Origin: a virus
Virus record (IMG/VR): IMGVR_UViG_3300042346_000326
Coordinates: 1 to 64,000 of that record
Length of the DNA: 64,000 bases
Direction: 5' to 3' (one strand)
Positions within the stretch are counted from its first letter, which is position 1, and the number at the start of each line of letters is the position of its first letter. Under the pieces are notes generated by a model. The model worked only from the letters and a program-made list of their open reading frames with translations, had not been told where the DNA came from and ran no database searches. A program made the position numbers and the translations under genes. Positions 26,364-61,947 of this stretch are shown piece after piece.

Positions 26364-26630
26364 ATGCCAAATTCTGTTGCACAATTTGGTGACGACGATT
26401 CTGGCTTTAACGCTTATAAATCTCCAAGGTTAGACATCGACTCACCTGTATCGTATGGTTCTGCAACTCGTGGAACATACGAATCACGTACTGCGTGGAA
26501 AACACGAGACATGAGTCGTGGAGGTCCTCTTCCTTATTCGAAGAGGAGTGCAGGTTCTGTATACAAATTTGATGATGACTCTTCTCCTAATCTTCCACGC
26601 TCAGACAAGGGTGTAGGAAGAAATGAGTAG
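26364..26630 (+). CDS. Hypothetical protein
   Basis: 88 residues from ATG 26364, just after the previous stop; a longer frame from 26181 overlaps the preceding gene and is rejected. Polar and low in hydrophobic residues, probably disordered (YGSATRGTYESRTAW, RSDKGVGRNE). Unknown function. Confidence 0.55.
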   Translation: MPNSVAQFGDDDSGFNAYKSPRLDIDSPVSYGSATRGTYESRTAWKTRDMSRGGPLPYSKRSAGSVYKFDDDSSPNLPRSDKGVGRNE

Positions 26631-27354
26631 AAATGAAGAATTTAGCGTTGGCAATAATGTCTCTGTTCCTTTAGCATCTGAAGGCGCTGCTCGTTATGCA
26701 AGAGAAGCAGGTCTTAACCGACCTAATCGTTTTGATAATGTAGTTGTTAATACACCTCAAGCAAGAAAAATTGCACAGGAATACCAAGAGGCTCCGTCTT
26801 TTGACCCTAAAGCCATTCCTCATTACAAAGCAATGGCAGAAGAAACAAAACGTCAATTTGATTTTATGACTCGTCCTAAAGCAAAAGGTGGACTTGGAGT
26901 TGATGTCCAAGTAACACAACATGACCCATATGCAAAAGCCGCTCATATGATGCAAGACGCTGGACAAGGAAGATTTAAAGTTTTTTCTTCAGCATCAACA
27001 GGTGGTCACCCATATTTTTCAAATGAAGAGAACGACATGTTTCGTGCAGTACATGACTTTTTTGGTCATGCTGCAACAGGAAGAGGATTTGACCCACATG
27101 GCGAAGAGGCTGCCTTTCGGAGTCACCACGCTATGTTTTCTCCTGTGGCTCGACCTGCCATGGCAACGGAAACTCGTGGACAAAACAGTCTTTTAAATTA
27201 TGGAGATAGAAAAGGCGAGTTCCCAGAGCAGAAGGTAGCCGTCCTAAAGTCGTCTGGACTAATAACTCCAATTGGTCGTCGTGCAGAGTTTCTTCGTTCT
27301 GCTGTTGAGGCTAAAGCAGCCCACGAAAAAATGTTACGAGGGTTCAAGTCATGA
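26623..27354 (+). CDS. Conserved phage protein with His-rich HDFFGH motif
   Basis: 243 residues, 8-base overlap with the previous gene. The core is FRAVHDFFGHAATGRGFDPH, then GEEAAFRSHHAMF and ATETRGQNSLLNYG. The regular His, Asp and Glu spacing (HDxxGH, GE, SHH) suggests a metal-binding site; I recall similar blocks in phage proteins of unknown function and in polyvalent phage proteins. It is not a classical HExxH protease. Confidence 0.6.
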   Translation: MSRNEEFSVGNNVSVPLASEGAARYAREAGLNRPNRFDNVVVNTPQARKIAQEYQEAPSFDPKAIPHYKAMAEETKRQFDFMTRPKAKGGLGVDVQVTQHDPYAKAAHMMQDAGQGRFKVFSSASTGGHPYFSNEENDMFRAVHDFFGHAATGRGFDPHGEEAAFRSHHAMFSPVARPAMATETRGQNSLLNYGDRKGEFPEQKVAVLKSSGLITPIGRRAEFLRSAVEAKAAHEKMLRGFKS

Positions 27355-28170: not shown

Positions 28171-28703
28171 TGCCAACAGGTGCTAATAATTTTTCTGCTA
28201 GTCAGAACTGGCAATCACTTGGTGCTGGTGGTTTTTATGGGTACAACAACCAGGGTGGTGCAGGAACTCCTGTAGCCCATGACACTATGGACGCTCTGCG
28301 TATTGGTGTCGGTCGTGTTCCTTCTGCAGAATATCCAGACGGATATCTAGGAACGATTCGTTCACGTCGTGATGACAGGTTACTTGATAGTGTAAAGTCT
28401 CGCGTTAATCAAAAGGCTTATCAACGCGGTGTTCACAAAGGTGAGCGTATCGAGCCATCGATGTACTTTTGGCCTCAAGAATTTACTTCTGACATGGGAA
28501 TTATGCGTCAGATGCGTGCAGTACCTGATGCAAGTTCAGGTGCAACTGTTTACCGTGCACCACGCTTTGCACCACAAACACAGTTAACACCTGCGCCACA
28601 TCTTGTAAACGATGGTAAATCAAATTTGGTTTCTGATGCTCCTGGTCAAATTGATGTTCGTCGCCAAAATATGTTGGCTTATCTGAAACCTGCGTGGCGA
28701 TAA
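28170..28703 (+). CDS. Hypothetical protein
   Basis: 177 residues, TGATG overlap. Gly/Asn-rich start (GAGGFYGYNNQGGAGTP), then RIGVGRVPSAEYPDGYLGTI and many Arg residues. Composition is like a small virion or DNA-associated protein, but nothing specific can be assigned. Confidence 0.6.
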   Translation: MPTGANNFSASQNWQSLGAGGFYGYNNQGGAGTPVAHDTMDALRIGVGRVPSAEYPDGYLGTIRSRRDDRLLDSVKSRVNQKAYQRGVHKGERIEPSMYFWPQEFTSDMGIMRQMRAVPDASSGATVYRAPRFAPQTQLTPAPHLVNDGKSNLVSDAPGQIDVRRQNMLAYLKPAWR

Positions 28704-29356
28704 TGGCATATTTTGGAGTTAATGAACATGGTCGTTGGGACAAAAATTTAGCACAAGCACAGTTCCACACTCACGTGCAGAACATACTTGATAAGTATCA
28801 CACAGCCAGCCCTGAATTAATTAAGGGTGGCTCTGCATGGTATGAACGTGCACATGAGGAAGCAAAAAAGATTGGTGGTGGTGACGTTCGCAAAGGTGCA
28901 GGAATTATTGCTGCATTATCTCCTTTAAATGATTGGGATAGAAACGTTGCTGAAGCACATGAATTGCGCAAAACAGGGGGCGTATCAGGCGCTCTTCTTC
29001 CACAGAATGTAGAAAAAGCCAGACGCATTCACAGTGGAGAAGACCCTCACGATGTACTAGGTGGACATAAAGTTCGTAGTTTTTTTGAAAACATTCACGA
29101 CCCAAGCAACAAAGAGCCAGTGACTATTGACCGTCATGCTTATGACATTGCTATGGGACATCCGTTTGTAGGAACGGGAAGAAAGACAACACAACGTGGT
29201 GGTGGAGGAAAGATGTCTCCAGATGTTGGGCTCTCTGCTATGGGACGTTACCAGCATTTTGTTCACGCTTACAAGAAGGCCTCCGAAAATCTTGGTGTAG
29301 AAATTCCTAACAGAGCACAAGCAGTTTCTTGGGTTGCACATAGAGGTGCGCTATGA
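28703..29356 (+). CDS. Conserved phage protein, DUF7178-like, HhH-glycosylase-like pattern
   Basis: 217 residues from ATG 28703 (TAATG); a GTG at 28694 is the alternative. WYERAHEEAKKIGGG, GAGIIAALSPLNDWDRNV, KVRSFFENI and VTIDRHAYDIAMG form the pattern of a widespread phage family that I recall as DUF7178. The helical layout with a final catalytic-like Asp in TIDRHA is reminiscent of helix-hairpin-helix DNA glycosylases. That resemblance is an inference. Confidence 0.55.
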   Translation: MAYFGVNEHGRWDKNLAQAQFHTHVQNILDKYHTASPELIKGGSAWYERAHEEAKKIGGGDVRKGAGIIAALSPLNDWDRNVAEAHELRKTGGVSGALLPQNVEKARRIHSGEDPHDVLGGHKVRSFFENIHDPSNKEPVTIDRHAYDIAMGHPFVGTGRKTTQRGGGGKMSPDVGLSAMGRYQHFVHAYKKASENLGVEIPNRAQAVSWVAHRGAL

Positions 29357-30925: not shown

Positions 30926-31108
30926 ATGGCAAAAATCTCTCCTAAACAATTTGGTGCTTCTCCTGAATGTGAAGTTTGTTACGCAAAATTGCATGAGACA
31001 CCTCTTTATCGTCATGGAGGAAGTGTTTACTGCGAACAAGACTTAGATAGGGCCATAAATGAAAAATGGCATCCTGGTTCTAAAAAAATTACAGAAATAA
31101 AAAGGTAA
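30926..31108 (+). CDS. Small zinc-finger-like protein
   Basis: 60 residues. CEVCYAKL then YRHGGSVYCEQDL resembles half of a LIM or treble-clef zinc finger (Cys, Cys, His, Cys). It sits in a run of tiny genes, several of them with metal-binding motifs. Confidence 0.5.
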   Translation: MAKISPKQFGASPECEVCYAKLHETPLYRHGGSVYCEQDLDRAINEKWHPGSKKITEIKR

Positions 31109-48567: not shown

Positions 48568-48852
48568 TTAGTTGTATTCGTTGATAGGTGTATCGGGATT
48601 GCTGATTACTGATTGAGATTTATTTTCTACATCAGTAAGTGTTTCAATGAGTGACTCGAATTGTTCTTCATTAACAATTCTTAGTCTGATTACTTCATTC
48701 ATCTTTTCGATAACAGATTCGAGAGTTTCAATAAAGCCGACAGGTGGCTCGCTTCCATTCTCTACTACTTCTTTTGTTGATTGTGCGATTCCCATTAGCC
48801 CCATTTGTAAGAAGCCAAGTTCATCTTTTGTGAAGTCGTATAACGGATTCAT
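48568..48852 (-). CDS. Hypothetical helical protein
   Basis: 94 residues, mainly helical and acidic (LGFLQMGLMGIAQSTKEVVE, IEKMNEVIRLRIVNEEQFES). First larger gene ahead of the AAA+ gene. Unrecognised. Confidence 0.55.
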   Translation of the reverse strand: MNPLYDFTKDELGFLQMGLMGIAQSTKEVVENGSEPPVGFIETLESVIEKMNEVIRLRIVNEEQFESLIETLTDVENKSQSVISNPDTPINEYN

Positions 48853-48941
48853 TTGTTTTCCTTTCGTGGTTCTAACTCATTGTGAATCAAGCAGAACCAT
48901 GACTCTTTGTCGTATGCGACAAGTGTGTGTTCAGTATTCAT
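48849..48941 (-). CDS. Tiny hypothetical protein
   Basis: 30 residues, overlapping both neighbours in ATGA fashion (start 48941, stop over the next start). Sequence includes SWFCLIHNELEP. Coupling suggests it is translated. Confidence 0.4.
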   Translation of the reverse strand: MNTEHTLVAYDKESWFCLIHNELEPRKENK

Positions 48942-49060
48942 TTAACGAGCCTTTCTTTGTGGTCTTTACGGACATGATTGGTAAGAGTTTCAGAAGCGAA
49001 ACCGCTACGAACCTCTAGTTCTTTGTCGCATACAGGGCATTGAACAATTCTTTGCGCCAT
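48938..49060 (-). CDS. Small C2H2-like zinc finger protein
   Basis: 40 residues, ATG 49060 with aaaaggag upstream. CPVCDKELEV and TLTNHVRKDH give a Cys2-His2 arrangement. A single finger could bind DNA or protein. Confidence 0.6.
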   Translation of the reverse strand: MAQRIVQCPVCDKELEVRSGFASETLTNHVRKDHKERLVK

Positions 49061-49117
49061 GTAAGTAACTCCTTTTCTCTGTAATGGGTATTCGGTATTA
49101 AGTTGTTTATTCAGTTG

Positions 49118-49291
49118 TTATTTAGTTGTATCTCGATAAGGAGTCCATGTAGTCCAGCGAGATTCGCCTTCTACATTTATCCGTAACTTAACTAGGTCGT
49201 TGCGAACAGGAACTATCTCTTCAATGATTCCTGTAATGCGTGACTTAGTAGAAGTGAATAAGTCACCGATTGCGTATTTATCTTTTTCCAT
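49118..49291 (-). CDS. Small hypothetical protein, first gene of the leftward operon
   Basis: 57 residues, ATG 49291 with aaggaaagagg. Strand-rich, KSRITGIIEEIVPVRNDLV then RWTTWTPYRD, like a small SH3-type barrel. Function unknown. Confidence 0.6.
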   Translation of the reverse strand: MEKDKYAIGDLFTSTKSRITGIIEEIVPVRNDLVKLRINVEGESRWTTWTPYRDTTK

Positions 49292-49322
49292 TGTGTTGCC
49301 TCTTTCCTTATGTAACCACCGC

Positions 49323-49367
49323 GATTGTCACCGAATCTCATTCACAGAATCGGTATCGGTGACAATC
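49323..49367. promoter_or_regulatory. Operator-like 12-bp inverted repeat
   Basis: GATTGTCACCGA (49323-49334) and TCGGTGACAATC (49356-49367) are perfectly complementary. It lies 32 bases upstream of the first leftward gene, in a suitable place for promoter control. Shares TTGTCACC with other sites. Confidence 0.55.
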
Positions 49368-49613
49368 ACAGAAAACACATAAGCGAAATTACTAAGTATG
49401 AATAACTCGTTTATTCAATTACTGTCATTGTTCTTGGAACAGATTGGTTACTGTCGGCACTAACTATTGTTAGCAATCCATAGGTAATGAATAACTGAGT
49501 TACACAACTTTCCGTAACTCGTCTAAGCCTTCTGCTATTCACAATAACTTTCGTTAATGTTGATTACGATTTATTAGGAGTGCGCTCTGCTCGCTTGTAA
49601 CTTTTGTCGCTCG

Positions 49614-49648
49614 TAATTCGATACGCGGTAAGTTTGAGTATCGAATTA
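49614..49648. repeat. 11-bp inverted repeat
   Basis: TAATTCGATAC (49614-49624) and GTATCGAATTA (49638-49648), perfect, with a 13-base spacer. No T-run. Confidence 0.55.
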
Positions 49649-50333
49649 GTTATCGCGGATACAAGGTCTTCGCATAGAAGTCACTTCGTGCGTTCCGTTA
49701 TTCGTAATTTAATTTAGTCGCGTAATGCGTAAATCATTTTGCCAATTTAATTTTGAGTATCACTCGCGGTCTTATGACCTATTAAGTAAATTGAATAACT
49801 GCCGATAGTAAATTGGGATAATCACAATTACTAAATCGTCATAACAGTTTTTGCGTAATGAATCTAAATCGCAGATTCTTAGTCACTATGTAATTTTCTA
49901 AGTTCGAGTGGGTTCTTTGGAGAGCCTCTCGGCTCTACCTCTGACCACGCCCCAAGTATGCCATAGATTGACCGACTCAGTTTGCCACCCCTATTAAGAG
50001 CGTGTTTATGGGGCTTTTAGCCCCTAGAGCCCCTGCCCCCCAAGTAACCCACCTGCTATCACCACCGCTTCAGAAGAGTTAGTTAGTGAATGAGCGTGAG
50101 CCCCCACATAACTAATCGCGCCAAAGAGTTTTTCTTTTCAGTAATGACTAATACAAAGATAGTAATAGATAGATAGAAGTTAATAATAGAGATAGATAAA
50201 TACCCACATAAGTAACTCGGTAACTACACTCAATTAGTCAATAATCAAATAAACACATAACAAAGTTTGTAATAGCAAATAATTAAGTAACTTCTGACCT
50301 TCTGCTGTCGTATCTAAGCGTAGAAGAGTAAAA

Positions 50334-50373
50334 AGTAAGTAACTCCGCCGTTTAATTCTGGAAGTTACTTACT
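50334..50373. repeat. 11-bp inverted repeat with AAGTAACT motifs
   Basis: AGTAAGTAACT (50334-50344) and AGTTACTTACT (50363-50373), perfect. The core AAGTAACT is repeated at 50210 and 50285. Confidence 0.55.
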
Positions 50374-50662
50374 GACTAACTCAGATAGCCCGTAACTAAC
50401 TAGCCACCACCACCGCCATAACCGCCACCTGATACATCTTGTCGTTACAAGGAGAAGTGACTCATCTACCTACTAGGGAATAACTGAGTTAGTCATAGTG
50501 ATAGAAGATAATTGAAACAATTAGTAATAGATACATAACAACACATAACTAATAACGCGTTGCGTTACTAATGCGTGATTATGTGATAACAACTGACTAG
50601 GTGACTCGTTGGCTTGGTGGTATCCGCACAGACCATGTTGCTAAATAAACAGTAGCCGAAGT

Positions 50663-50685
50663 GTTGTCACCAAAGTTGTCACCAA
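50663..50685. promoter_or_regulatory. Tandem TTGTCACCAA sites
   Basis: GTTGTCACCAA twice with 12-base spacing (one helical turn plus), matching the half-site of the 49323 inverted repeat. Likely binding sites for the same regulator. Confidence 0.5.
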
Positions 50686-50727
50686 GTTATTTGTTACACC
50701 TGATAACAACGCATGAGTTGAACAACA

Positions 50728-50752
50728 ACCACCTGATTAGTAGTCAGGTGGT
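50728..50752. terminator. Hairpin, possible weak terminator for the minus-strand gene at 50872
   Basis: ACCACCTGA and TCAGGTGGT form a perfect 9-bp stem; on the minus strand it is followed by ttgttgttc, a T-rich but interrupted run. It lies 120 bases past the stop of gene 50872. Confidence 0.35.
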
Positions 50753-50843
50753 AGGTGTTCTCATGTGTAACTAACAACAACCCCCCCACCATTAAACGGA
50801 AAACGCCAAATGAACAGCCAGGTGAGACACATGGTTGAGGGGT

Positions 50844-50862
50844 TGGGGCCAGGGCAGTAGCC
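50844..50862. repeat. 19-bp direct repeat flanking gene 50872, copy 1
   Basis: TGGGGCCAGGGCAGTAGCC, one mismatch to the copy at 51161-51179. A shorter form (GGCAGTAGCC) recurs at 52039. Confidence 0.65.
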
Positions 50863-50871
50863 AAAAGACGG

Positions 50872-51141
50872 CTAGTGGCCCTCGTCAATGGTCCACGCCT
50901 TATGGGTAGGAGAGTCCTTTATCATCTTTACGGTCTTATAGCCTGTAAGCCATTTAAGGGCATCCTTTAACGCCTGGTCTGATGTCTTAGATTGCCCTTT
51001 CATATACGTATAAGGCTGCTGTATCTCTGGATTAGTGGGGTATTCATGCCAACAGTCAGTTCTGATTCCCCAATGCCACACAGATTTACGGTTTGTAACG
51101 AGGATTGTAAATTGGCCATTCACACATTTAGTGTAGTACAT
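50872..51141 (-). CDS. Hypothetical protein
   Basis: 89 residues from ATG 51141; the frame continues to 51264 but that would run into the opposite gene. CVNGQFTILVTNRKSVWHWG, then TSDQALKDALKWLTGY and AWTIDEGH look like a real small protein. Bracketed by 19-bp direct repeats and transcribed against its neighbours. Unrecognised. Confidence 0.5.
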   Translation of the reverse strand: MYYTKCVNGQFTILVTNRKSVWHWGIRTDCWHEYPTNPEIQQPYTYMKGQSKTSDQALKDALKWLTGYKTVKMIKDSPTHKAWTIDEGH

Positions 51142-51160
51142 GCTAGTGCGGTTGACGATG

Positions 51161-51179
51161 TGGGGCCAAGGCAGTAGCC
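51161..51179. repeat. 19-bp direct repeat flanking gene 50872, copy 2
   Basis: TGGGGCCAAGGCAGTAGCC, just upstream of the GNAT gene at 51193 and of the divergent gene 51141. Confidence 0.65.
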
Positions 51180-51192
51180 GTAAACTAGCCAC

Positions 51193-51498
51193 ATGGCAGA
51201 CTTTCTTAGCAGAGTGCAGTTCAAAAATCACTCTACTCCCTATGAGGACAAGATTGGGGCCCATTTAGGCAAGCAGCAGGTTGGATGGCTAGACCTTGAT
51301 AAAGATACGGGTGTAGTTAATGAGGTATATGTTAAGGAGCAGCACCAGGGTAAGGGTATCGCCACAGGCATGTGGAAGCACGCCCAGGAGTCTGGCTTAA
51401 ATCCAAGACATTCTGATACTCGTTCCGAGTCTGGAGATGCTTGGGCGCAATCTCTTTATCAAAAGGGACTGGCTCCAGAACCAGAGAGTATGGAATAA
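51193..51498 (+). CDS. GNAT-like acetyltransferase, short
   Basis: 101 residues. EVYVKEQHQGKGIATGMWKH holds the acetyl-CoA pyrophosphate motif (Q-x-x-G-K-G-I-A) after a beta-4 strand. The end HSDTRSESGDAWAQSLYQKG is shared in form with the GNAT-like gene at 52706. At 101 residues it is shorter than typical GNATs, so it may be a minimal form. Target unknown. Confidence 0.65.
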   Translation: MADFLSRVQFKNHSTPYEDKIGAHLGKQQVGWLDLDKDTGVVNEVYVKEQHQGKGIATGMWKHAQESGLNPRHSDTRSESGDAWAQSLYQKGLAPEPESME

Positions 51499-51824
51499 TG
51501 AGCAATCTAGGCCCTCAATTCGACCCCTTACAAGAGGCTAGGAGTATCAAGAACAATAAGAGCCGCCTAACTAGGACCCTAAAGGCCGTAGGACTAGAGC
51601 CACGGAGACGATTTAAGTCAAGAAGCGGAAAGGTATCGATGCAATCTGCAGGATTGGTATACACCGCTACAGATAGCAACAGTACAACGGTCCACTACGC
51701 CACTGGTAGTCCTGGAGATAACAACGTGGAACCATATCATCAGCGGATACTAAAGGCCCTTATCGATGCCGACTACAACGCTTCAATGAAGGATGGCAAA
51801 ATTCACGTACAGCACTCTATGTGA
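51498..51824 (+). CDS. Hypothetical basic protein
   Basis: 108 residues from ATG 51498 (TAATG overlap; the upstream in-frame start at 51441 lies in the previous gene). Basic (RRRFKSRSGK), and its start MSNLGPQFDP is like that of the papain-like gene at 53101 (MSNLGRQWKQDP), suggesting a shared tag. Function unknown. Confidence 0.55.
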   Translation: MSNLGPQFDPLQEARSIKNNKSRLTRTLKAVGLEPRRRFKSRSGKVSMQSAGLVYTATDSNSTTVHYATGSPGDNNVEPYHQRILKALIDADYNASMKDGKIHVQHSM

Positions 51825-51836
51825 TAGGCTCTGTCT

Positions 51837-51998
51837 ATGAGCATCGAGAAGCGAATCGGCAAGGTATGGATATATTTTGGTTGGAACTTTAGAAGAGTTG
51901 CATTTGGAATCTCAGTAGACCGCTTTGAGATAGCGTTTGATTTTCTATTCTGGTACTTCACAATTGAATTTTGGCCAATATTTTCCAGTAACGACTAG
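51837..51998 (+). CDS. Small aromatic-rich protein, possibly membrane-associated
   Basis: 53 residues, ATG 51837. Many Phe/Trp (VWIYFGWNFRRVAFGI, FDFLFWYFTIEFWPIF). Weak ribosome site. Might associate with the membrane. Confidence 0.45.
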   Translation: MSIEKRIGKVWIYFGWNFRRVAFGISVDRFEIAFDFLFWYFTIEFWPIFSSND

Positions 51999-52011
51999 TA
52001 CCTCCCCTAGC

Positions 52012-52036
52012 AGATAAGATTTCACGCTATCTTTTT
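52012..52036 (+). terminator. Weak terminator-like hairpin
   Basis: agata and tatct form a short 5-bp stem with an 11-base loop followed by six T. Weak, between gene 51837 and gene 52063. Confidence 0.3.
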
Positions 52037-52062
52037 TAGGCAGTAGCCTCATAATACTCTTT

Positions 52063-52179
52063 ATGAGTAGCCTGTCTGCAAACCAATTCGTAATGCCTAA
52101 AGAGCAGTATGTAAATGTCGCCATGCAGATGATGCCTCCATCAGGGGCCACTAACACAGCAAGTAGCACCAAGGCATGA
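52063..52179 (+). CDS. Tiny hypothetical protein
   Basis: 38 residues, Met- and Ser-rich (MSSLSANQFVMPKEQYVNVA). Its stop overlaps the next start in ATGA. A CTCATAA/TTATGAG stem overlaps the start region. Could be a leader or coupling peptide. Confidence 0.4.
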   Translation: MSSLSANQFVMPKEQYVNVAMQMMPPSGATNTASSTKA

Positions 52180-52709
52180 GCAGATACGCAGAGTTCAGTG
52201 ATTCAGCAGGTCGCCACTATGTAGAAGGCGAGATGCCCGAACAAGTCAAATATCGTCACAAGTTATCTAACTTTGGAGAACCTAGGCGCATCTCGGTCTA
52301 TGACCCTAGTGACTCAACGCCACGTCGTGCTAGTGAACAGGGCCATATAGAAGAACATCCAAAAGGTGAACCTGGTCTTGTGGGATATGCAGATATCTAT
52401 CGTGAAAAAGGCGGCGAACAATTCGGCACTCTAACAAATGCAGAGGGAAAGAAAGAGCCACTCATTAGTAAGGCCCATACCAATATCGGCTTTGTAACAG
52501 TAGAACCCAAACATCGTGGTGGCGGCATATCAAAACAACTAATTAACTATGTAGATAAGACCACACCAAAAGATGCCCAAGTAAATTTTGGTGAGATTGC
52601 ACACATCGGCATGGCCAAGATTGCTTCAAAGATGCAGGCAGAAAACCCAAGTCGTATTCATGCAAAAGACTTGTGGTACTACAAAGACAAACTTAAGGAA
52701 GGCCAATGA
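52176..52709 (+). CDS. GNAT-like acetyltransferase
   Basis: 177 residues, ATGA overlap. Strand IGFVTVEPKHRGGGISKQLI contains the acetyl-CoA loop R-G-G-G-I-S. The N-terminal 70 residues are polar with YAEFSDSAGRHYVEG. Second of three GNAT-like genes in 2 kb. Substrate unknown. Confidence 0.6.
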   Translation: MSRYAEFSDSAGRHYVEGEMPEQVKYRHKLSNFGEPRRISVYDPSDSTPRRASEQGHIEEHPKGEPGLVGYADIYREKGGEQFGTLTNAEGKKEPLISKAHTNIGFVTVEPKHRGGGISKQLINYVDKTTPKDAQVNFGEIAHIGMAKIASKMQAENPSRIHAKDLWYYKDKLKEGQ

Positions 52710-53101
52710 AGAAGACGCCTCCTCCTAAAAATCCTAATGACAGAAGAAACCTGTCGGGGGTTCAGTTTAGATACTTTCCACCTGAAGATAAGTACTCATT
52801 TCATGAACTACATGCCATCTCTCCAGATGCTTATAACAAGAACAGCAGAACAGGAAAAGGATTAGTCGTCGGGCGGTTGCAGTGGCATCCAAAGTCTGGT
52901 GAGGTCAATTGGGTGCGCACACACGAGAACTATCGAGGCCTAGGTGTCGCATCTACGTTATGGGAAAAGGCTAATAAGTTATCTGCCGATACTGGAATAA
53001 GAGCACCCAAACATTCTAAGCACCGCACTGACCAGGGCGATGCGTGGGCAAAATCTGTCGGGGGCGTTACGCCATCACGAGCCAACTATGAGGAGTGGTG
53101 A
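52706..53101 (+). CDS. GNAT-like acetyltransferase
   Basis: 131 residues, ATGA overlap. VGRLQWHPKSGEVNWVRTHE then NYRGLGVASTLWEKA holds the R-G-L-G-V-A acetyl-CoA motif. The end (HRTDQGDAWAKSVGG) resembles the 51193 gene, so these may be paralogues. Confidence 0.65.
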   Translation: MKKTPPPKNPNDRRNLSGVQFRYFPPEDKYSFHELHAISPDAYNKNSRTGKGLVVGRLQWHPKSGEVNWVRTHENYRGLGVASTLWEKANKLSADTGIRAPKHSKHRTDQGDAWAKSVGGVTPSRANYEEW

Positions 53102-53604
53102 TGAGTAACCTAGGTCGCCAGTGGAAACAGGACCCACTCATCATGACGCCAAAAGAATTAGAAGGCCATGTTCAAGATACTCTAAAGTCAAATCCATTTA
53201 AAACAACTACAGAGAGAATTACAGATAACCCACATGGCGCTTGCTATGACGCTTCCTGTTTAATTCATGGCTATCTGCCACATGGCTCACACGTCGCTGT
53301 CTATGGTGGAAAGCACCACGACCCAAAGTCTACAAATCCAGGAGACTGGTACAGCAATCACTTTGTACATCACGTACCTACTACAGAGGGTATGCACGCT
53401 GTTGATTTGACGCATCGTCAATTTGATTCATCAGAGAAGACTCCCCTAGTAGAGCCACTACAGAAGTTTCAAGATAGAAACGTAATGAAGGGCTTTAGAA
53501 CTCTGCGCACTGATGCAGAGCACGCAAAGTTATACACAGAGGGTAGAAAGACCAAGCCTCTAGGTAAGAAGATGGCTAGAGAATTGCGCAGGGATGTCAC
53601 ATGA
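53101..53604 (+). CDS. Papain-like/transglutaminase-like cysteine protein
   Basis: 167 residues, ATG 53101 with gaggag (two GTG codons just upstream are alternatives). HGACYDASCLIHGYLPHG gives a nucleophile-like Cys48, WYSNHFVHHV His87, and HAVDLTHRQFD Asp102, in the C-H-D order of papain-like deamidases, proteases and transglutaminases. Such folds are frequent in effectors. Not proven active. Confidence 0.55.
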   Translation: MSNLGRQWKQDPLIMTPKELEGHVQDTLKSNPFKTTTERITDNPHGACYDASCLIHGYLPHGSHVAVYGGKHHDPKSTNPGDWYSNHFVHHVPTTEGMHAVDLTHRQFDSSEKTPLVEPLQKFQDRNVMKGFRTLRTDAEHAKLYTEGRKTKPLGKKMARELRRDVT

Positions 53605-53882
53605 GTGCATCAGATAACCTATCAAGCCAATTGTTTCATGGAACAAGGGCAAAGATAAAGGGACAGATAATTAACCCAGGTCCATCTGGATTTGCGTATG
53701 CAACAACTGACAGAGGTTCTGCAGAATTATTCGGCAAAACAAAGATGCCAGAAGGTGAACTAGGAGATAACAAGGTCTATCGCGTTATGTCATTAGGAGA
53801 AACGACTACCAAGCCAGGTAACTTTAAGGGTGAGACTCACCACATCTCCGACACTGGCTTCTTGATATTAGGTGAAGCATGA
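53601..53882 (+). CDS. ADP-ribosyltransferase-like protein (Arr type)
   Basis: 93 residues, ATGA overlap. LFHGTRAKIKGQIINPG, then FAYATTDRGSAELFG and KVYRVM match the short Arr (rifampin ADP-ribosyltransferase) type: His13 in HGT, Tyr33 in AYATT, and Asp84 as possible third residue. NAD-binding of this fold would modify a host target. Shorter than Arr (about 140). Confidence 0.55.
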   Translation: MSASDNLSSQLFHGTRAKIKGQIINPGPSGFAYATTDRGSAELFGKTKMPEGELGDNKVYRVMSLGETTTKPGNFKGETHHISDTGFLILGEA

Positions 53883-54307
53883 GCGCCCTATCTAACGAGT
53901 TATTTTTTGAAGCACATCGCGGACTTCGTCTAAAGGGCAAAGAAAAAGTTAATAAAGACGAATTAGGTATGCACTGGTCTGCAGATAGAGATAAAGCAGA
54001 TGAGTTTGCAACAAAGCACATAAATTGGCCTGAGTGGGAACATGGCAAGACTTATCATGCCCAGATACCTGTATCTGCTGTAGAGACTGGATTCACTCGT
54101 CTACGTGACAGTGGCTTCGCTAACTTTGCTGGTAAAGACCCATTAGGTGAAAAGGAAGTGCCAGTAAAAGAGGGCGCTACAGTAAAGGTCACAGGCGTTA
54201 CTAGCCATCGTAGAACATACCTAGGACCTAACAAGACCGTTAATCAGGGAACGGCATTGAAGTCACGTACCCGTCGTTACAACCCACCAAGAGAGATGAA
54301 GGCATGA
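53879..54307 (+). CDS. ADP-ribosyltransferase-like protein (R-S-E type)
   Basis: 142 residues, ATGA overlap. Arg14 in AHRGLR, Ser34 in MHWSADRDKADEFA and the pair Glu91-Lys-Glu93 before VKEGATVKVTGVT reproduce the R-S-ExE signature of arginine-specific ADP-ribosyltransferases. Phages use such enzymes to modify RNA polymerase or ribosomes (T4 Alt/Mod, ModB). Target here unknown. Confidence 0.65.
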   Translation: MSALSNELFFEAHRGLRLKGKEKVNKDELGMHWSADRDKADEFATKHINWPEWEHGKTYHAQIPVSAVETGFTRLRDSGFANFAGKDPLGEKEVPVKEGATVKVTGVTSHRRTYLGPNKTVNQGTALKSRTRRYNPPREMKA

Positions 54308-54489
54308 CTTGTCGTCATGTCTATGAATATGTTGGGGCGGCAATATGTCCCGCGTGCGGGCGCGATACGCACGAACCAGACACCGAACTTCATAACAAGT
54401 TGTTCAAAGAGCATTACGAGCAGGGCCGTCATCTGGTATACAAGTGTCCTGTAGAGGGCGGCACTATACGAGGTTGGTGGAGCATATGA
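54304..54489 (+). CDS. Small zinc-binding protein
   Basis: 61 residues, ATGA overlap. CRHVYEYVGAAICPACGRD, and a later Cys in YKCPVEGG; four Cys plus His could bind zinc. A similar short CRH..C..C protein is at 58278 on the other strand. Confidence 0.6.
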   Translation: MTCRHVYEYVGAAICPACGRDTHEPDTELHNKLFKEHYEQGRHLVYKCPVEGGTIRGWWSI

Positions 54490-54917
54490 GTGCACCTTTA
54501 TCTGAACCGTTGTTTCATGGTTCAAGCCATCCCTTTAACAAGGGCGACATTATTAAGCCTATGGAGATGGACCACGCACATGCCACAACAGATAAGGCAT
54601 ATGCCAATAACTACTCGACATTAGATGCAGAACGAGATTACAGTAGAGACCCAAAGTCTTTATTTACATATACCTACAAAGTCAGTCCTGTAGATGAAAA
54701 AGAGATGCACTCAGAGACAGAACCGTGGAGAACTGACCCAGTTAAAAAGAACCTACGTCTTGCTAAAGACATTCCTAATATCTATGTGTCCAAAAAAGGA
54801 TTTAAAGTAGAGGGCATCGAGTCAATGAGGGCGCACCCACAGATAGTTACAGATAACAAGGTTCTAGAGAACGCTCTGAGCGCTTGGAGACGAAAACGTG
54901 ACAGAGAAGAGTCCTAA
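54486..54917 (+). CDS. ADP-ribosyltransferase-like protein (Arr-like, degenerate)
   Basis: 143 residues from ATG 54486. LFHGSSHPFNKGDIIKPMEM, then HAHATTDKAYANNYS and FTYTYKVSP follow the order seen in the 53601 protein; the AYATT Tyr is replaced by His (HAHATT). Either a divergent Arr-type enzyme or an inactive relative. Confidence 0.5.
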   Translation: MSAPLSEPLFHGSSHPFNKGDIIKPMEMDHAHATTDKAYANNYSTLDAERDYSRDPKSLFTYTYKVSPVDEKEMHSETEPWRTDPVKKNLRLAKDIPNIYVSKKGFKVEGIESMRAHPQIVTDNKVLENALSAWRRKRDREES

Positions 54918-55041
54918 TCCTGCTAGGGTCAAGAAGGTCCAGGAATTAAGGCGCTCTAACGCTGCTACCCCTGTCCCCTCTAAAAAGGTCTATACAAGGA
55001 AGAAAAAGCATTCAAAGGGCGCAAATCGGGCATCTCTTTAG
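54898..55041 (+). CDS. Small very basic protein
   Basis: 47 residues, GTG 54898 within the end of the previous gene. Begins MTEKSPNPARVKKVQELRRS, with KKVYTRKKKHSKGANR. About one third Lys/Arg; may bind nucleic acid. Confidence 0.5.
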   Translation: MTEKSPNPARVKKVQELRRSNAATPVPSKKVYTRKKKHSKGANRASL

Positions 55042-55099
55042 GCTCAAACCCAAGTTGACCCCTTTGGTATCCTTGGGTACTGGAGGCGAAGGGGAGACC

Positions 55100-55651
55100 A
55101 TGACAACAATCATTGGAGTTCAGTACGAAGACCACTGCCTATTTATGGCAGATAATCAAGTTACATTAGATGGTGGTCGTCGTTACAAACACCCCGATAT
55201 GAAAAAGATTAGCAAGGTAGGCGAATACCTTGTTGCAGGTTCTGGCGAAGTTGCACCATGCGATATTGCGCAACATCTATGGACGCCACCTGCTATGTCT
55301 GCCAAAGACAGAAAAGATACTTATCACTTTGTTATTGCTAAGTTGATGCCATCGCTACGCAAATGTCTTGAAGACAATGGCTACGATTTCGATGAAGGCA
55401 AATCTGACGGCAAGTCAGGTGAATCACGATTCAATCTGCTTGTTGCCGCTAATGGTCAGATATTCGACATTGCCGATGATATGTCGGTCTGTATGTCAGA
55501 TGCTGGCTTCTATGGCGTTGGCTCTGGCTCTCCATATGCATTAGGTGCTCTCTATGGTGGTGTTAAGCCAGAAAAGGCTATGGCTGTTGCTGAGAAGATA
55601 GATGTCAATACTTCTGGGCCGTTTCAGAAAGAAGTTCAGTACAAGAAGTAA
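55100..55651 (+). CDS. Proteasome-beta/HslV-like Ntn hydrolase
   Basis: 183 residues from ATG 55100, with ggggagacc upstream; the longer frame from 55055 would bury the key Thr. The start MTTIIGVQYEDHCLFMADNQ places Thr2 first after Met removal, with Asp17 and a Lys (KK at 34-35, mature numbering) as in proteasome beta subunits. VAGSGEV and GSGSPYALGALYGG are further proteasome/HslV-type elements. Actinobacteria have proteasomes, so this may form its own barrel or join the host's. Confidence 0.75.
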   Translation: MTTIIGVQYEDHCLFMADNQVTLDGGRRYKHPDMKKISKVGEYLVAGSGEVAPCDIAQHLWTPPAMSAKDRKDTYHFVIAKLMPSLRKCLEDNGYDFDEGKSDGKSGESRFNLLVAANGQIFDIADDMSVCMSDAGFYGVGSGSPYALGALYGGVKPEKAMAVAEKIDVNTSGPFQKEVQYKK

Positions 55652-55654
55652 CTT

Positions 55655-55683
55655 TTGTGAAATAAATCACACTCTGATATAGT
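55655..55683 (+). promoter_or_regulatory. Promoter of the HSP20 gene
   Basis: TTGTGA (55655-55660), exactly 17 bases, then TATAGT (55678-55683): a good sigma-70/SigA-type promoter 59 bases ahead of the HSP20 start. Confidence 0.7.
55656..55671. promoter_or_regulatory. CRP/GlxR-type operator over the -35 box
   Basis: TGTGA-AATAAA-TCACA exactly matches the consensus TGTGA-N6-TCACA of CRP-family regulators, including actinobacterial Crp/GlxR. It covers the -35 box, a position expected to repress. Confidence 0.6.
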
Positions 55684-55741
55684 TACATATACGGCTTGCC
55701 ATTCGGGAGCCATTAAACCTAGTCTCGTCTAAGGAGAGATT

Positions 55742-56227
55742 ATGACACCCTATGAAGTTATGAAAAAGAAATCTACGTATCCTGATTACGCACATAAAAT
55801 GGAAACCCCAAAGGACCCCTTTACAACACTTGAACCCTTTTTAAATTCATGGACTATCGGTTTTGACCGACACTTCCAACTACTTGAGGAGTTGCGCAAT
55901 GCATCAAAGTCAACCTATCCCCCATACAACATCGTACAAGTTGATGACGGAGAGACCTACATCATCGAGATTGCAGCGGCTGGCTTCACCAAAGAGGATA
56001 TCGAAGTCTCTTTTAGAGAGAACCAACTTATCGTCACTGGAAAGATGGAAGATGATTCAGCCCAGTATCTCCACAAAGGCATAGCATCACGGGACTTCGA
56101 ACAGTCCTTTGCCCTTGCCGATGATGTAAGGGTAGTAGACGCATCTATGCAGGATGGAATTCTGTCCATTCGTCTAGAGCGAGAAATTCCTGAACATAAG
56201 AAACCACGAACAATTACTATCAAGTAA
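55742..56227 (+). CDS. hsp20: HSP20 small heat shock protein
   Basis: 161 residues with aaggagag. The alpha-crystallin domain spans about residues 60-155: YNIVQVDDGETYIIEIAAAG, FTKEDIEVSFRENQLIVTG, YLHKGIASRDFEQSFALAD, and GILSIRLER. IbpA-type. It holds unfolded proteins, and phage versions are known from cyanophages. Located next to the proteasome-like gene, with its own promoter. Confidence 0.9.
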   Translation: MTPYEVMKKKSTYPDYAHKMETPKDPFTTLEPFLNSWTIGFDRHFQLLEELRNASKSTYPPYNIVQVDDGETYIIEIAAAGFTKEDIEVSFRENQLIVTGKMEDDSAQYLHKGIASRDFEQSFALADDVRVVDASMQDGILSIRLEREIPEHKKPRTITIK

Positions 56228-56306
56228 TATACGTCACACAATTTAATACGAGGCTCCTGGGCATGAGCACGCAAAAACTGCCCATTCAATCTGCTAGGCT
56301 TTTCGT

Positions 56307-56813
56307 ATGATTGTTAGCCTTAGTAAAGAAGAAGTCCGTGCATGTGCGGACATTGCGTTAAATCGTTGGATGATGAAGTGGGGCTCTATTGACCGCCCTA
56401 ATTATGCTGGCGATAATAAAGCAAAACTAGAACCAGAAATTGCAGCCAACGTTAGAACTATCGTTGCAGAATACGCTGTGGCAAAACTTTATAAAATGCC
56501 ACTAACATTTCCGTTCTATCCAAATGAAGAACATCCATTTAGACAGCACATTCCTGATGTTGGCTCTAATGTTGAGGTTAAGAGTGTTAGAACACGAGAT
56601 GAGATTCCAGTCTTTCCTAAAGACATTAAACCTGGTCGCCTTCTCGTGGGCGCACGCGTACTCGACCGCGACTACTACTCAGAGGTAGAGGTATACGGTT
56701 GGCTACGAATGGAAGATGTGCAACGAGATGAATGGAAATACGTACCAGAGGGTTCATGGCGTATTCCATTGACTGAGTTCAACGACTCAATACCAGAGGT
56801 CGTGTATGTCTAA
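56307..56813 (+). CDS. PD-(D/E)XK nuclease-like protein
   Basis: 168 residues. An N-terminal helix ends in VAEYAVAKLY, then IPDVGSNVEVKSVR gives Asp84 and Glu90-Val-Lys92, and VGARVLDRDY gives the third strand. This is the EVK-type active site layout of restriction-like nucleases. May be a stand-alone nuclease or a decayed restriction-like protein. Confidence 0.55.
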   Translation: MIVSLSKEEVRACADIALNRWMMKWGSIDRPNYAGDNKAKLEPEIAANVRTIVAEYAVAKLYKMPLTFPFYPNEEHPFRQHIPDVGSNVEVKSVRTRDEIPVFPKDIKPGRLLVGARVLDRDYYSEVEVYGWLRMEDVQRDEWKYVPEGSWRIPLTEFNDSIPEVVYV

Positions 56814-58657: not shown

Positions 58658-59000
58658 ATATGTGCTTGGTCAGGGGATTTTTGGAGGAATTAAGGGAAGT
58701 TATGGTAGATATAGCGTGGGACCTCGTGTGAACAGTCTTTCAACACAGTTTAATGATTACATGGATACTGTAGAAGAAAGTAAACGTCGTCGTTTCAAGA
58801 GAAAAAAAGAATCAGGTTATTCAGGCGCAGGTTTCTGGTTTGGTCTTTACCCAAACATGGTTGCAGGTATGGGCTCAGGAACAGGTGTGATGAATCCTGA
58901 CCAAGTCCCTGCAGATGCTGGTTCTGGACAAACTGCTGCAACAACAGATGGTATGGGAATGGGTGGAACATCTTTTAATGGCGCTGGTGGTGTTAGTTAA
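58644..59000 (+). CDS. Hypothetical protein, Gly/Met-rich end
   Basis: 118 residues from ATG 58644, 14-base overlap with the previous gene; the frame from 58530 is rejected. RRRFKRKKESGYSGAGFWFG in the middle, then Gly/Ala/Met-rich end. Resembles the small proteins around 28-31 kb in composition. Unknown. Confidence 0.55.
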   Translation: MENNRYVLGQGIFGGIKGSYGRYSVGPRVNSLSTQFNDYMDTVEESKRRRFKRKKESGYSGAGFWFGLYPNMVAGMGSGTGVMNPDQVPADAGSGQTAATTDGMGMGGTSFNGAGGVS

Positions 59001-59277: not shown

Positions 59278-61947
59278 TTGAAATTGCTGCGTGCATCCGC
59301 AGAACAATATGGTTTCTTTAGTCGTTTAAACTTTTTACTAGGAGCAGGATTTATTTATCTGCTTCTTTCGATTCTTCCTGCTTATGCAGAGGAAACAACT
59401 TCTGCACCACCTGCGCCACAAGAAACAACAGCGCCAACCCCAGAGCCCACACAAAGTCCAACGTCATCTACTTCTTCTCCTGAACCTTCTCCAACGCCAA
59501 CAGCCGAACCTTCACCGAGCGAAGCATCACCTTCACCAACACAAAGTCCAGAGCCAAGCCCAACCCCAACCCCAACAGAAACCACAGCGCCTGAGACATC
59601 TCCTACTCCTTCCACATCCACTTCGACTGAGCCCGCTCCAAGTCCAACTCCAACGCCAGAATCTTCGCCTGCTTCCACTTCAACTCCGACTCCAACTCCT
59701 GAACCTTCTCCAACTCCAACCGCGACCTCGACTCCAGCGCCAACACCCGCTCCATCTTCTGAGCCGAGTCCAACTCAATCACCGACTCCAGAGCCTTCAC
59801 CTTCCGCTTCAGTGGCTCCGACGCCCATATCCAGCCCAGAACAATCCCCGTCCCCAAGCAATACAACACAAACGCCGACTGCCACCACACCTGAAACACC
59901 TACAGTCACCTCCGTACAAGCAAAAATTGAGACGGCAACTGTAACGCTAAATGCTGCAATTGAATCGTCAACTGTCACACAACAAGCGGCTGCTGCTACT
60001 CAAATAACTGAGGCTCAAACTGCTATCACTGTGGCAGAGAGCGCCACGGTCACTGCTGTTGCTGCGCAGGCTACTGTTAATGCTCTTTTAGATGCGCCAG
60101 AAAACACAAAAGTGTACACAACTGATGGTTATGTGGCTCCCGTTGCTCCGCAAACACCCACAGTTACAACAACAACTTTGCCTGTGATGTACGACGCATC
60201 AACTAAAATTCAAACTCCTTTTGATATAAAAATGGGTGATGTGGTATACAACGGTCAGGGTGCAGATAGCCAAATTTATGTAACTTCAAAGGCAACTATT
60301 ACCTTTGGCACTGGAAACCATATCTGGTGGGATTTCCCTGCTGGACCAAGCATTTCAGTATTTGCCAGCGACTATATGAATGCTGGTCAAGGCACATCTA
60401 CTGTAGTAACTACCACAGATACAACTTTAGAAGTTGATTGGAACCTTAAAAAGTTTGGTGACAACAACAGCCCTATAACTAACATTAATTGGAAAATGAC
60501 TGTCAACCCTACAACTGGGGAATGGACTGGTATAGGAACTGTTGCTGGCAATACTACTAATCTTTGGTATCCGCAACGCACTGGTGTTAGAGAAACTGCA
60601 GGCGAGCCTATAAAACCAATGACAAATGTAACTAATGAGACCATTGCTGCGGCTCAAGAAACAGCGGCAACAAAACTTGCTACCGCAAATGCTTTAGCAA
60701 ATACTGCAGTAGAAAAAGTAGAAACCGCTGTTACAGTTCTTCAAACTCCGATTCCTCAAACTCCGCCGACTCCAACACCTGAGCCAACTCCCGCACCGCA
60801 GCCAGAGCCAACACCACAACCACAGCCAGAGACGCAACCACAGCCAACACCACAACCCGAACCTTCACCTGAACCTCCTACAAATCCGTCAACCGACCCT
60901 GCGCCAACCAATCCAACTCCTGAGCCCACGGTTCCAGGACCTCAACCTGAGCCTCAACCTCAACCAGAGCCTGTTGTACCGCAACCCGAACCAGAGCCTG
61001 AGCCTCCTGTGACGGAAGAGGATGACCCTGAAGAACCTGAAGTTGCTCCAGAGAATCCTGAAGAGTCTTCTGAAGAGGAAACAGAAAGTCAGGAAGAGGC
61101 TCCAGAGGATTCTCCTGAAGATGACACTCCCGAAGACACTCAAGACGATTCAGAGAGTCCTCAAGACACTCCTGAATCTTCCGATAATCAACAGCCAGAC
61201 TCATCAGAAGACCCTACAGACTCAGAAACAGAACCGACCCCAACAGAAGAAGAGACACAGCCCATATCGCCTGAAGAAGGCGACGAAACTGACGAGTCTT
61301 CTGTCGAACCCCAACCTGAAGAATCAGAAGAGCCAGAAACAGACAACCAAGAGCAATATAATCAGTCGGAAGAAACACAAGATACTCCTATCGTTGAACC
61401 AAGTAACCCAGAGCCTACACCAGAAACAGTTATCTCCGACGCACTTTCTGACGGTCAATTAACAACCGAAGAAAAAGAAGTCATAGTTACTGCTTTGGTC
61501 GCTAGTCTAGCACCAGGTGAGGCTATCTCTAGCGAAACTTTAATAGAGGCTGGAATTACTTATGAAGACTTACCTCCACAAACACCTGTTGACGTTAGAA
61601 CCGATGAGAACGGTAATGCAGTTATTATTACTGCAGAAGTTGCAGCCGCCCTTGAACTAATCGAAAATCCATCTGAATTAATTGGCGAATTATTTACTGA
61701 CCCAGGTCAAGTTCTTCTTGCACTGGGAAGTATCGGTGCAGATATGTCAGAAGAAGAACGAGAAGAAGCAACAAAGATGGTCGTAGCAACTGTAGTCGCT
61801 GCAGGTGCTGCTATTAATGCTGCAACAACCGCAGCAGCCGCAGCAGCCGCTGCTGCAACAACAACGGGAGGGTCAACTGGAGGCAGTAGTTCAGGTGGCG
61901 GAGCGCCAACTGGAGATAGCAAGGCAGTTAGGAGACGCCGCAAATGA
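59278..61947 (+). CDS. Large exported Pro/Thr/Ser- and Glu-rich protein
   Basis: 889 residues, TTG start 12 bases after gagggg. Signal peptide about 1-40 (FIYLLLSILPAYA). Then a 170-residue PTSE repeat region (PTPEPSPTP-type), an Ala/Thr helix (210-270), a folded strand-rich domain about 300-440 (FGTGNHIWWDFPAGP, WKMTVNPTTGEWTGIGTVAG), a second Pro/Gln/Glu-rich region, a very acidic stretch (580-720), a helical domain (LTTEEKEVIVTALVASLAPG) and a Gly/Ser end with RRRRK. Looks like a wall-spanning surface protein of the host or a lysogenic conversion factor. Confidence 0.7.
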   Translation: MKLLRASAEQYGFFSRLNFLLGAGFIYLLLSILPAYAEETTSAPPAPQETTAPTPEPTQSPTSSTSSPEPSPTPTAEPSPSEASPSPTQSPEPSPTPTPTETTAPETSPTPSTSTSTEPAPSPTPTPESSPASTSTPTPTPEPSPTPTATSTPAPTPAPSSEPSPTQSPTPEPSPSASVAPTPISSPEQSPSPSNTTQTPTATTPETPTVTSVQAKIETATVTLNAAIESSTVTQQAAAATQITEAQTAITVAESATVTAVAAQATVNALLDAPENTKVYTTDGYVAPVAPQTPTVTTTTLPVMYDASTKIQTPFDIKMGDVVYNGQGADSQIYVTSKATITFGTGNHIWWDFPAGPSISVFASDYMNAGQGTSTVVTTTDTTLEVDWNLKKFGDNNSPITNINWKMTVNPTTGEWTGIGTVAGNTTNLWYPQRTGVRETAGEPIKPMTNVTNETIAAAQETAATKLATANALANTAVEKVETAVTVLQTPIPQTPPTPTPEPTPAPQPEPTPQPQPETQPQPTPQPEPSPEPPTNPSTDPAPTNPTPEPTVPGPQPEPQPQPEPVVPQPEPEPEPPVTEEDDPEEPEVAPENPEESSEEETESQEEAPEDSPEDDTPEDTQDDSESPQDTPESSDNQQPDSSEDPTDSETEPTPTEEETQPISPEEGDETDESSVEPQPEESEEPETDNQEQYNQSEETQDTPIVEPSNPEPTPETVISDALSDGQLTTEEKEVIVTALVASLAPGEAISSETLIEAGITYEDLPPQTPVDVRTDENGNAVIITAEVAAALELIENPSELIGELFTDPGQVLLALGSIGADMSEEEREEATKMVVATVVAAGAAINAATTAAAAAAAAATTTGGSTGGSSSGGGAPTGDSKAVRRRRK

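Follow-up and report, generated by a model that had tools for sequence, protein, structure and literature searches.

Why should a phage encode, in one tight row, small enzymes of unrelated folds, and do these genes work as one system? We addressed this question in a 64,000-nt window, which is part of a phage record of 97,380 bases. The preliminary description of the window had read the region from 51193 to 56813 as a multi-enzyme cassette for protein modification or host takeover. The genes were found at the positions it gave, and their tight coupling is real, with ATGA overlaps at six junctions and one-base overlaps at two. The genes discussed here, all on the plus strand, are as follows; "tag" denotes a short N-terminal motif described below.

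51193 to 51498 (+): g1, GNAT (Pfam Acetyltransf_7, 2e-6); tag ADF-LSRVQF (51205 to 51222, by direct reading)
51498 to 51824 (+): g2, 108 aa, no assigned function; tag MSN-LGPQF (51507 to 51521)
51837 to 51998 (+): g3, 53-aa ORF, untagged
52063 to 52179 (+): g3b, 38-aa peptide MSS-LSANQF-VMPKEQYVNVAMQM...NTASSTKA; tag at 52072 to 52089
52176 to 52709 (+): g4, weak GNAT (Pfam, 0.002); second tag type, MSRYAEF
52706 to 53101 (+): g5, GNAT (Pfam Acetyltransf_1, 1.4e-4); tag RRN-LSGVQF (52751 to 52768)
53101 to 53604 (+): g6, putative papain-like or deamidase-like protein with Cys48-His87-Asp102 (invariant residues, model, fold search); tag MSN-LGRQW (53110 to 53124)
53601 to 53882 (+): g7, Arr-like ADP-ribosyltransferase (ART); tag ASDN-LSSQLF (53619 to 53636)
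53879 to 54307 (+): g8, R-S-ExE ART; tag MSA-LSNELF (53888 to 53905)
54304 to 54489 (+): g9, small Cys-rich protein, zinc-ribbon-like by sequence, no Pfam match; untagged
54486 to 54917 (+): g10, Arr-like ART (AlphaFold, Foldseek, Arr-ms family); tag SAP-LSEPLF (54498 to 54515)
55100 to 55651 (+): HslV-like Ntn peptidase (phrog_1040, 1.6e-26), untagged neighbour
55742 to 56227 (+): HSP20 small heat shock protein (Pfam HSP20, 1.6e-17), untagged neighbour
56307 to 56813 (+): candidate PD-(D/E)XK nuclease (PD..EVK residues only), untagged neighbour
58728 to 59000 (+): small protein, NSLSTQF close to the N-terminus; homologue of a conserved family encoded between the endolysin and the head genes
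26623 to 27354 (+): protein of 243 aa bearing MSRNEEFSVG, a tag of the second type; in a different gene cluster of the same phage

Enzymes of the cassette and their neighbours

The two WhiB genes of the phage suggest an actinobacterial host, probably of the freshwater type; among freshwater actinobacteria, 'Ca. Nanopelagicales' have already yielded phage isolates (PMC10202952). Its terminase shares 54% identity with the one of BRock-type Streptomyces myoviruses; no DNA-level similarity to known phages was found for the window. Because the cassette lies upstream of the lysis and head genes, beside a divergent intergenic region, its early expression is also possible. A promoter scan returned fewer promoter-like sites than shuffled sequences did.

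Each cassette gene encodes a single small domain. The proposed count of three GNAT-like genes holds, with g1 and g5 clearly above the Pfam cutoffs and g4 weaker, below the cutoff. Three ART-like genes were likewise recovered, two Arr-like (g7 and g10) and one of the R-S-ExE type (g8). In the family that contains g7 and g10, 14 of 48 members matched Pfam Arr-ms (best 2.8e-12), g7 and g10 themselves giving no match; the His of [YF]HG is invariant, and other residues vary. The best Foldseek matches of the AlphaFold model of g10 were Arr structures (9iaf, 9iba and 2hw2; probability 1.00, E values of 1-3e-3, TM scores of 0.44-0.51). Judged from the model and the family profile, g7 and g10 are of the Arr fold and family. 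They share with Arr, the rifampin ADP-ribosyltransferase, the fold and the Pfam family of their relatives, but in phages these proteins are short, tagged and highly diverged, with rifampin as just one candidate substrate. The complete R14/S34/E91xE93 signature reported for g8 is present; across 26 relatives R14, G15, H32, E91 and E93 are invariant, and position 34 is mostly S or T. Sequence and profile searches of Pfam and the PDB gave nothing significant for this family. On its sequence, g8 has the Arg, S/T and ExE triad of an R-S-E class ART.

The Cys-His-Asp protein of the preliminary description is g6, in which C48, H87 and D102 are invariant in 11 relatives. Its model (pLDDT 65) places these residues in a papain-like order, and the best matches were weak (SseI and a protein-glutaminase, with E values of 0.02-0.3).

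Two of the three downstream assignments were borne out. The Ntn hydrolase belongs to the PHROG HslV family by profile and starts with MTTIIGVQY, with a Thr after the Met corresponding to the N-terminal Thr of HslV, and the small heat shock protein is an HSP20. The PD-(D/E)XK nuclease was not confirmed: its gene product matched nothing in Pfam or the PDB and gave a weak match to phrog_18407, a family without assigned function. Because all three genes are untagged and their order is constant among relatives, we regard them as neighbours and not as members of the set; the HslV-like and HSP20 genes are better seen as ordinary phage genes outside the tag pattern. The reading as a protein-modifying multi-enzyme cassette is supported by the ART, GNAT and papain-like folds, with host takeover as a possible role. 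In relatives, cassettes are longer and shuffled, and ParB-like nucleases are added.

Two N-terminal motifs on unrelated proteins

The preliminary description had passed over the 38-aa ORF g3b and two short motifs. The first, (N)L[S/G/N]xx[Q/L][F/W], is located near the N-terminus of 8 of the 11 cassette ORFs; the second, MSRxxEF, is on a ninth (g4), leaving only g3 and g9 with neither. Among 1812 called genes from 68 related loci, the first motif begins within the first 15 residues in 243 of 286 matches (222 within the first 10) and beyond residue 50 in 13. It is carried by about 25 unrelated families; 29 clusters bear it once the motif itself is trimmed off, two of them being spurious reverse ORFs. 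In loci found via the Cys-His gene, and with the Cys-His genes themselves removed before counting, there were 31 N-terminal matches versus 3 elsewhere, and shuffles led us to expect 0.34 (maximum of 3 in 200 runs). A domain-blind scan of 2.9 million viral contigs for MSN-L-[S/T/C/R/W]-PxQF yielded 38 loci, about 34 of which were such cassettes.

The tags vary and can be exchanged. Orthologues of the g6 Cys-His protein bear NLGRQW, NLSKGQW or MSRGQEFSHGVW, and a relative of g4, which has the MSRxxEF type, carries the first type instead (AADNLGQQW; BLASTP, L027:13-588, 6e-36). The g3b family comprises conserved peptides of 38-60 aa in about 40 loci; peptides of 38-57 aa are little more than the tag. 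The strongest sign that the cassette genes form a single working system is the shared tag, which also hints at their mode of delivery.

Queries with the ARTs (tblastn) and GNATs against 50,697 phage records returned no tagged homologue, and direct tblastn with the ARTs of the cassette gave no match in cultured phages. The tag was absent from the 100 kb examined of LuckySocke, a BRock-type Streptomyces phage, and from the stretches examined of Arthrobacter phages Bumble and Hirko and Brevibacterium phage Cantare. A literature search for the motif strings gave no relevant paper. Two sets of candidates were discarded: a cultured-phage match to the ART of locus L022 was an ordinary arr gene on a contig with transposases and resistance genes that is labelled phage, and 22 pattern matches in bacterial genomes were all out of context and attributable to chance.

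Loci of distant phages retrieved by their tail sheath alone (GC of 0.60, 0.67 and 0.47) have tagged ARTs directly upstream of the sheath and tube genes. In L022, which was selected by the motif, tagged ParB-like, Cys-type and ART genes likewise lie directly upstream of these genes. In L022 and L117-L119, effector genes directly accompany virion genes.

Possible functions of the tags

We propose that the cassette would encode small enzymes that modify the host, in a set that varies: ARTs, GNATs and a papain-like or deamidase-like enzyme, to which relatives add ParB-like nucleases. The enzymes would be made as separate proteins, each with an N-terminal address tag of the first type or the alternative MSRxxEF type. 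The tag would bind one phage component at assembly (the inner capsid, the scaffold or the tail lumen), and the tagged enzymes would therefore be loaded into the virion and then injected with the DNA, much as with the capsid-targeting sequence (CTS) of T4. We think it rather probable that the tag is a virion-loading signal on a disaggregated "polyvalent" effector set. Packaging, injection, and the activities and targets of the enzymes are parts that we infer. Counting against this reading, no receptor for the tag was identified, portal, scaffold and major capsid protein lack the motif, the phage records gave no tagged homologue, LuckySocke is untagged in the 100 kb examined, neither a prohead protease nor a cleavage site beside the tag was found, and the cassette may be expressed early. 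On the wider proposition, that the myoviruses of actinobacteria share a general code for loading cargo, with two interchangeable short N-terminal tags by which each phage would fill its virion with 5-15 separate enzymes to be injected, we are evenly divided.

Other explanations of the tag keep the enzymes in the infected cell. It might dock the enzymes onto a complex of the host or the phage, such as RNA polymerase, the ribosome, the membrane or the replication machinery. One complex could then be the target of all tagged enzymes; the cassette opens a transcription unit that faces a divergent gene block, and the head proteins (portal, scaffold and major capsid protein of the same phage) lack the motif. 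However, peptides that are little more than a tag have no evident need of docking, tagged genes stay in the head-tail region of distant phages, and the tag sequence is stable though hosts differ (GC of 0.40-0.67), and we consider docking unlikely. A signal for proteolysis or chaperoning that sets effector lifetime, for example through the adjacent HslV-like peptidase or HSP20, would suit both the presence of these genes downstream of the cassette in close relatives and the disorder of the tag region in the g6 model (residues 1-10, pLDDT of about 39). We give this less credence still: no HslU-type unfoldase was seen, and an informal look at the stretches of the distant phages L022 and L117-L119, whose proteins include tagged ones, noticed no HslV-like gene.

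Two further readings deny the tag a delivery role, and both seem very improbable. The cassette could consist of ordinary accessory morons for superinfection exclusion, toxin-antitoxin functions or anti-defence that are expressed in the cell rather than injected. Its variable content and the existence of Arr-like ARTs and GNATs as stand-alone resistance or toxin proteins agree with this, but it leaves unexplained both one N-terminal tag over many folds and the placement in structural operons of distant relatives. Marginally less credible, and disfavoured, is a functionless motif, spread as gene starts were duplicated or exchanged with their ribosome-binding sites during the shuffling that cassettes have clearly undergone. 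Against this, the residues are fixed while the motif codons are fully diversified (all six Leu, all six Ser and both Gln codons are used), the DNA sequences of the eight tags in the window phage differ, and the motif is still conserved between phages that share only 51-60% identity in their tail sheaths. With every Leu and every Ser codon in use, the conserved unit is the protein, and a DNA-level origin of the motif through ribosome binding or recombination is disfavoured by the codon diversity.

Relation to known delivery systems

The proposed virion-loading signal would work like that of T4, in which ten N-terminal residues suffice for head targeting (PMC9026906). As in the T4 CTS of internal proteins IPI-III and Alt, a short N-terminal peptide is common to otherwise unrelated small proteins, and T4 is a contractile-tailed phage that packages an ART (Alt), the enzyme class also encoded here. 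The motif nevertheless appears different and covers about 25 families with many more tagged genes per phage, and its role in packaging is a predicted one. Unlike in T4, no cleavage site was found beside the tag, and no prohead protease was identified in reading the ORFs between the portal and major capsid genes; the LuckySocke annotation lists portal, scaffold and capsid, and not a protease. In the extracellular contractile injection system PVC, effectors of many kinds are guided into a contractile particle by a peptide at their N-terminus (PMC11495950). That system uses a tail-like particle and an AAA ATPase for loading; a counterpart of this ATPase was not identified here, and we do not claim that the motifs are related.

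Polyvalent proteins (Iyer et al. 2017, PMC5512222) combine ART, GNAT and ParB domains, and their entry into the host together with the DNA has been predicted. The repertoire of ART, GNAT, ParB and peptidase domains is present here, but those are multidomain polypeptides, whereas our phages have one small gene per domain and a shared short tag. For ARTs, predicted packaging is most frequent in myoviruses, and MuF-ART fusion toxins and myovirus virion ARTs are effectors for which carriage in the head is predicted, as for the ARTs here (PMC9503650). MuF-ART delivery occurs via fusion to a structural protein, whereas a free short tag is proposed here. Such a tag was not met in the portions available of either source (PMC5512222, PMC9503650). 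Bixzunavirus (mycobacteriophage cluster C) has homologous GNAT (tblastn, 7e-4) and R-S-ExE ART domains (hhalign, 6e-7 and 6e-8), fused in one protein of 680-751 aa encoded just upstream of the portal, whereas here they are in separate genes. The NLSxxQF tag is absent from this multidomain protein, in which [RK]TA[GS]-like stretches lie between the domains and recur in a neighbouring long protein.

To our knowledge, T4-like phages, jumbo phages and a few others are the main cases in which the route of effectors into virions is understood. If injected effectors could be recognised by a short tag in the sequence, those of uncultured phages that infect abundant aquatic actinobacteria would come to light, dozens of orphan small genes would gain a function together, and the tag could be used to bring reporter proteins into actinobacteria. 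If the wider proposition of a cargo-loading code is true, the tagged set would correspond, as free proteins, to the polyvalent polyproteins, and would be a modular delivery platform made by nature, with a swappable arsenal.

A motif shared by cassette genes of diverse fold

The virus record containing the window is 97,380 bases long, and its large terminase is 53-54% identical to those of BRock-type Streptomyces myoviruses. Two WhiB genes in this phage (5e-18 and 4e-18) suggest an actinobacterial host. The 5.6-kb gene run of the preliminary description was recovered at the coordinates given there, with all ORFs on one strand; neighboring ORFs overlap by ATGA six times and by a single base twice. 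Of the 11 ORFs at 51193-54917 (g1 to g10, including g3b), 8 open with one motif, (N)L[S/G/N]xx[Q/L][F/W] (the first tag), in the forms ADFLSRVQF, MSNLGPQF, MSSLSANQF, RRNLSGVQF, MSNLGRQW, SDNLSSQLF, MSALSNELF, and SAPLSEPLF. One carrier, g3b, is only 38 aa long, and g4 starts with a second motif, MSRYAEF. In relatives at two other viral loci (L002 and L004), the first motif opens the cassette genes despite members gained, lost, or swapped.

The following features were observed elsewhere in the window.

48852-51192: ORF-poor stretch (~2 kb) with several inverted repeats, preceding the cassette and separating divergent gene blocks
28694-29356: DUF7178 protein (4e-44); NLAQAQF, close to its start, is a possible tag variant
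30926-31108: 60-aa Cys-rich protein whose start, MAKISPKQFG, resembles the tag
58728-59000: possible virion protein from a conserved family (relatives in L025, L033, and L013) whose genes lie between those for endolysin and head; NLSxQF occurs ~32-37 residues into the sequence
59278-61947: 889-aa protein rich in Pro, Thr, and Ser, with numerous PTPEPSP-type repeats; conserved alongside the head genes of relatives

Most of the enzyme classes previously proposed for the gene run were borne out. The HslV-type proteasome-like and HSP20 genes were both confirmed, and g1 and g5 are GNATs (Pfam), with a weaker match for g4, the third proposed GNAT; the supposed nuclease could not be substantiated by profile search. 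The ADP-ribosyltransferase (ART) assignments held. Family A1 comprises 48 sequences, including g7 and g10, and 14 of them match Arr-ms (best, 2.8e-12); searched singly against Pfam, neither g7 nor g10 matches Arr-ms. Three Arr structures rank first in a fold search with the predicted g10 model (pLDDT 80). In a second ART family, A2, R14, G15, H32, E91, and E93 of g8 are invariant (26 relatives), and hhalign shows g8 to be homologous to an ART domain within multidomain proteins of cluster C mycobacteriophages (5.9e-7 and 5.8e-8). For g6, described as papain-like, C48, H87, and D102 are invariant; its model is papain-like in order but of low confidence, and the best fold matches, SseI and protein-glutaminase, are both weak.

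Distribution of the motif and controls for ascertainment

Viral contigs were scanned with DNA patterns for the motif plus an ART start and for a small peptide family. The richest of the sampled loci hold roughly a dozen tagged genes. Across 68 loci (1812 called genes), 243 of 286 motif matches began within residues 1-15 and 222 within residues 1-10; 13 lay past residue 50. With the motif trimmed, the tagged proteins sorted into 29 clusters, of which two are spurious reverse ORFs. Represented are GNATs, several families of ARTs, nucleases resembling ParB (from PHROG matches), the Cys-His family of g6, and zinc-binding proteins, as well as two peptides of 43 and 57 aa, the longer one encoded between endolysin and head genes. 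Asn precedes the motif in 75 of 87 distinct examples. All six Leu, all six Ser, and both Gln codons are in use at the motif; from this codon diversity, its conserved unit is protein, not DNA.

Because the pattern was drawn up after inspection of the first eight examples, controls for ascertainment bias matter. In loci fetched by Cys-His genes, with those genes excluded, 31 matches were N-terminal and 3 were elsewhere; the expectation from shuffled N-termini was 0.34. Phage loci retrieved through tail sheath alone (GC, 0.60, 0.67, and 0.47) carry tagged ARTs immediately upstream of the sheath gene, starting HPALSPDQFGTLLHGT, SASDYLQPRQFYHGT, and MNQNLQPLQFSELYHAT; the strict pattern gave three matches versus 0.12 expected. 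In a motif-selected locus (L022), the stretch just upstream of the sheath gene likewise holds an ART together with one Cys-type and two ParB-like genes, the sheath and tube identities being confirmed with PHROGs. In a domain-blind scan for the start MSN-L-[S/T/C/R/W]-PxQF, these cassettes accounted for about 34 of 38 matches, and the bacterial genomes scanned yielded chance matches only. A record labelled Acinetobacter phage MD-2021a (CAKLQF020000042.1) was rejected: this contig bears transposase genes along with sul, cmlA, and arr, and its annotation lists no phage gene.

A second, interchangeable tag

MS[RK]xxEF opens no fewer than five additional families. Among their members are g4 and a 243-aa protein without a Pfam match (26623-27354; start, MSRNEEFSVG), which lies in another cluster of small genes (25.9-32 kb). 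Cys-His orthologues bear NLGRQW, NLSKGQW, or MSRGQEFSHGVW, and a g4 relative in L027 bears AADNLGQQW where g4 has the second tag. The replacement of one tag by the other at the same position suggests that both do the same job.

A proposed address for virion loading

Effector domains, virion packaging of ARTs, and N-terminal packaging tags (in T4) are already known ideas; we found no description of the motif pair or of the disaggregated many-gene organization in the open-access literature searched.

In two cluster C mycobacteriophage records, RTAG/RTAS-like stretches lie between the effector domains of one long protein and occur again in the long protein beside it.

L009: 7509-9764 and 10530-13817
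L010: 6885-8924 and 9494-12979

In Tonenili and Kashi_SSH1, [RK]TA[GS]-like stretches separate the domains of a long effector protein, recur in an adjoining protein of 1095-1161 aa, and seldom occur in most other nearby genes; they may be processing sites, possibly for a prohead protease.

A short, mostly flexible N-terminal peptide common to many folds would serve as an address. We favor the virion (head or tail lumen) because distant relatives keep tagged genes in the head-tail region, because cluster C mycobacteriophages fuse homologous domains in a long protein beside the portal, and because the same enzyme classes are predicted to be virion packaged in contractile-tailed phages (PMC9503650, PMC5512222). 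The tagged enzymes would be packaged and then injected, with a putative receptor for the tag and presumptive targets for the enzymes. N-terminal signals load eCIS effectors into a tube (PMC11495950). The ten-residue N-terminal capsid-targeting sequence of T4 is a precedent for such a packaging tag (PMC9026906); here, we infer that the tags would likewise load small enzymes into the virion for injection.
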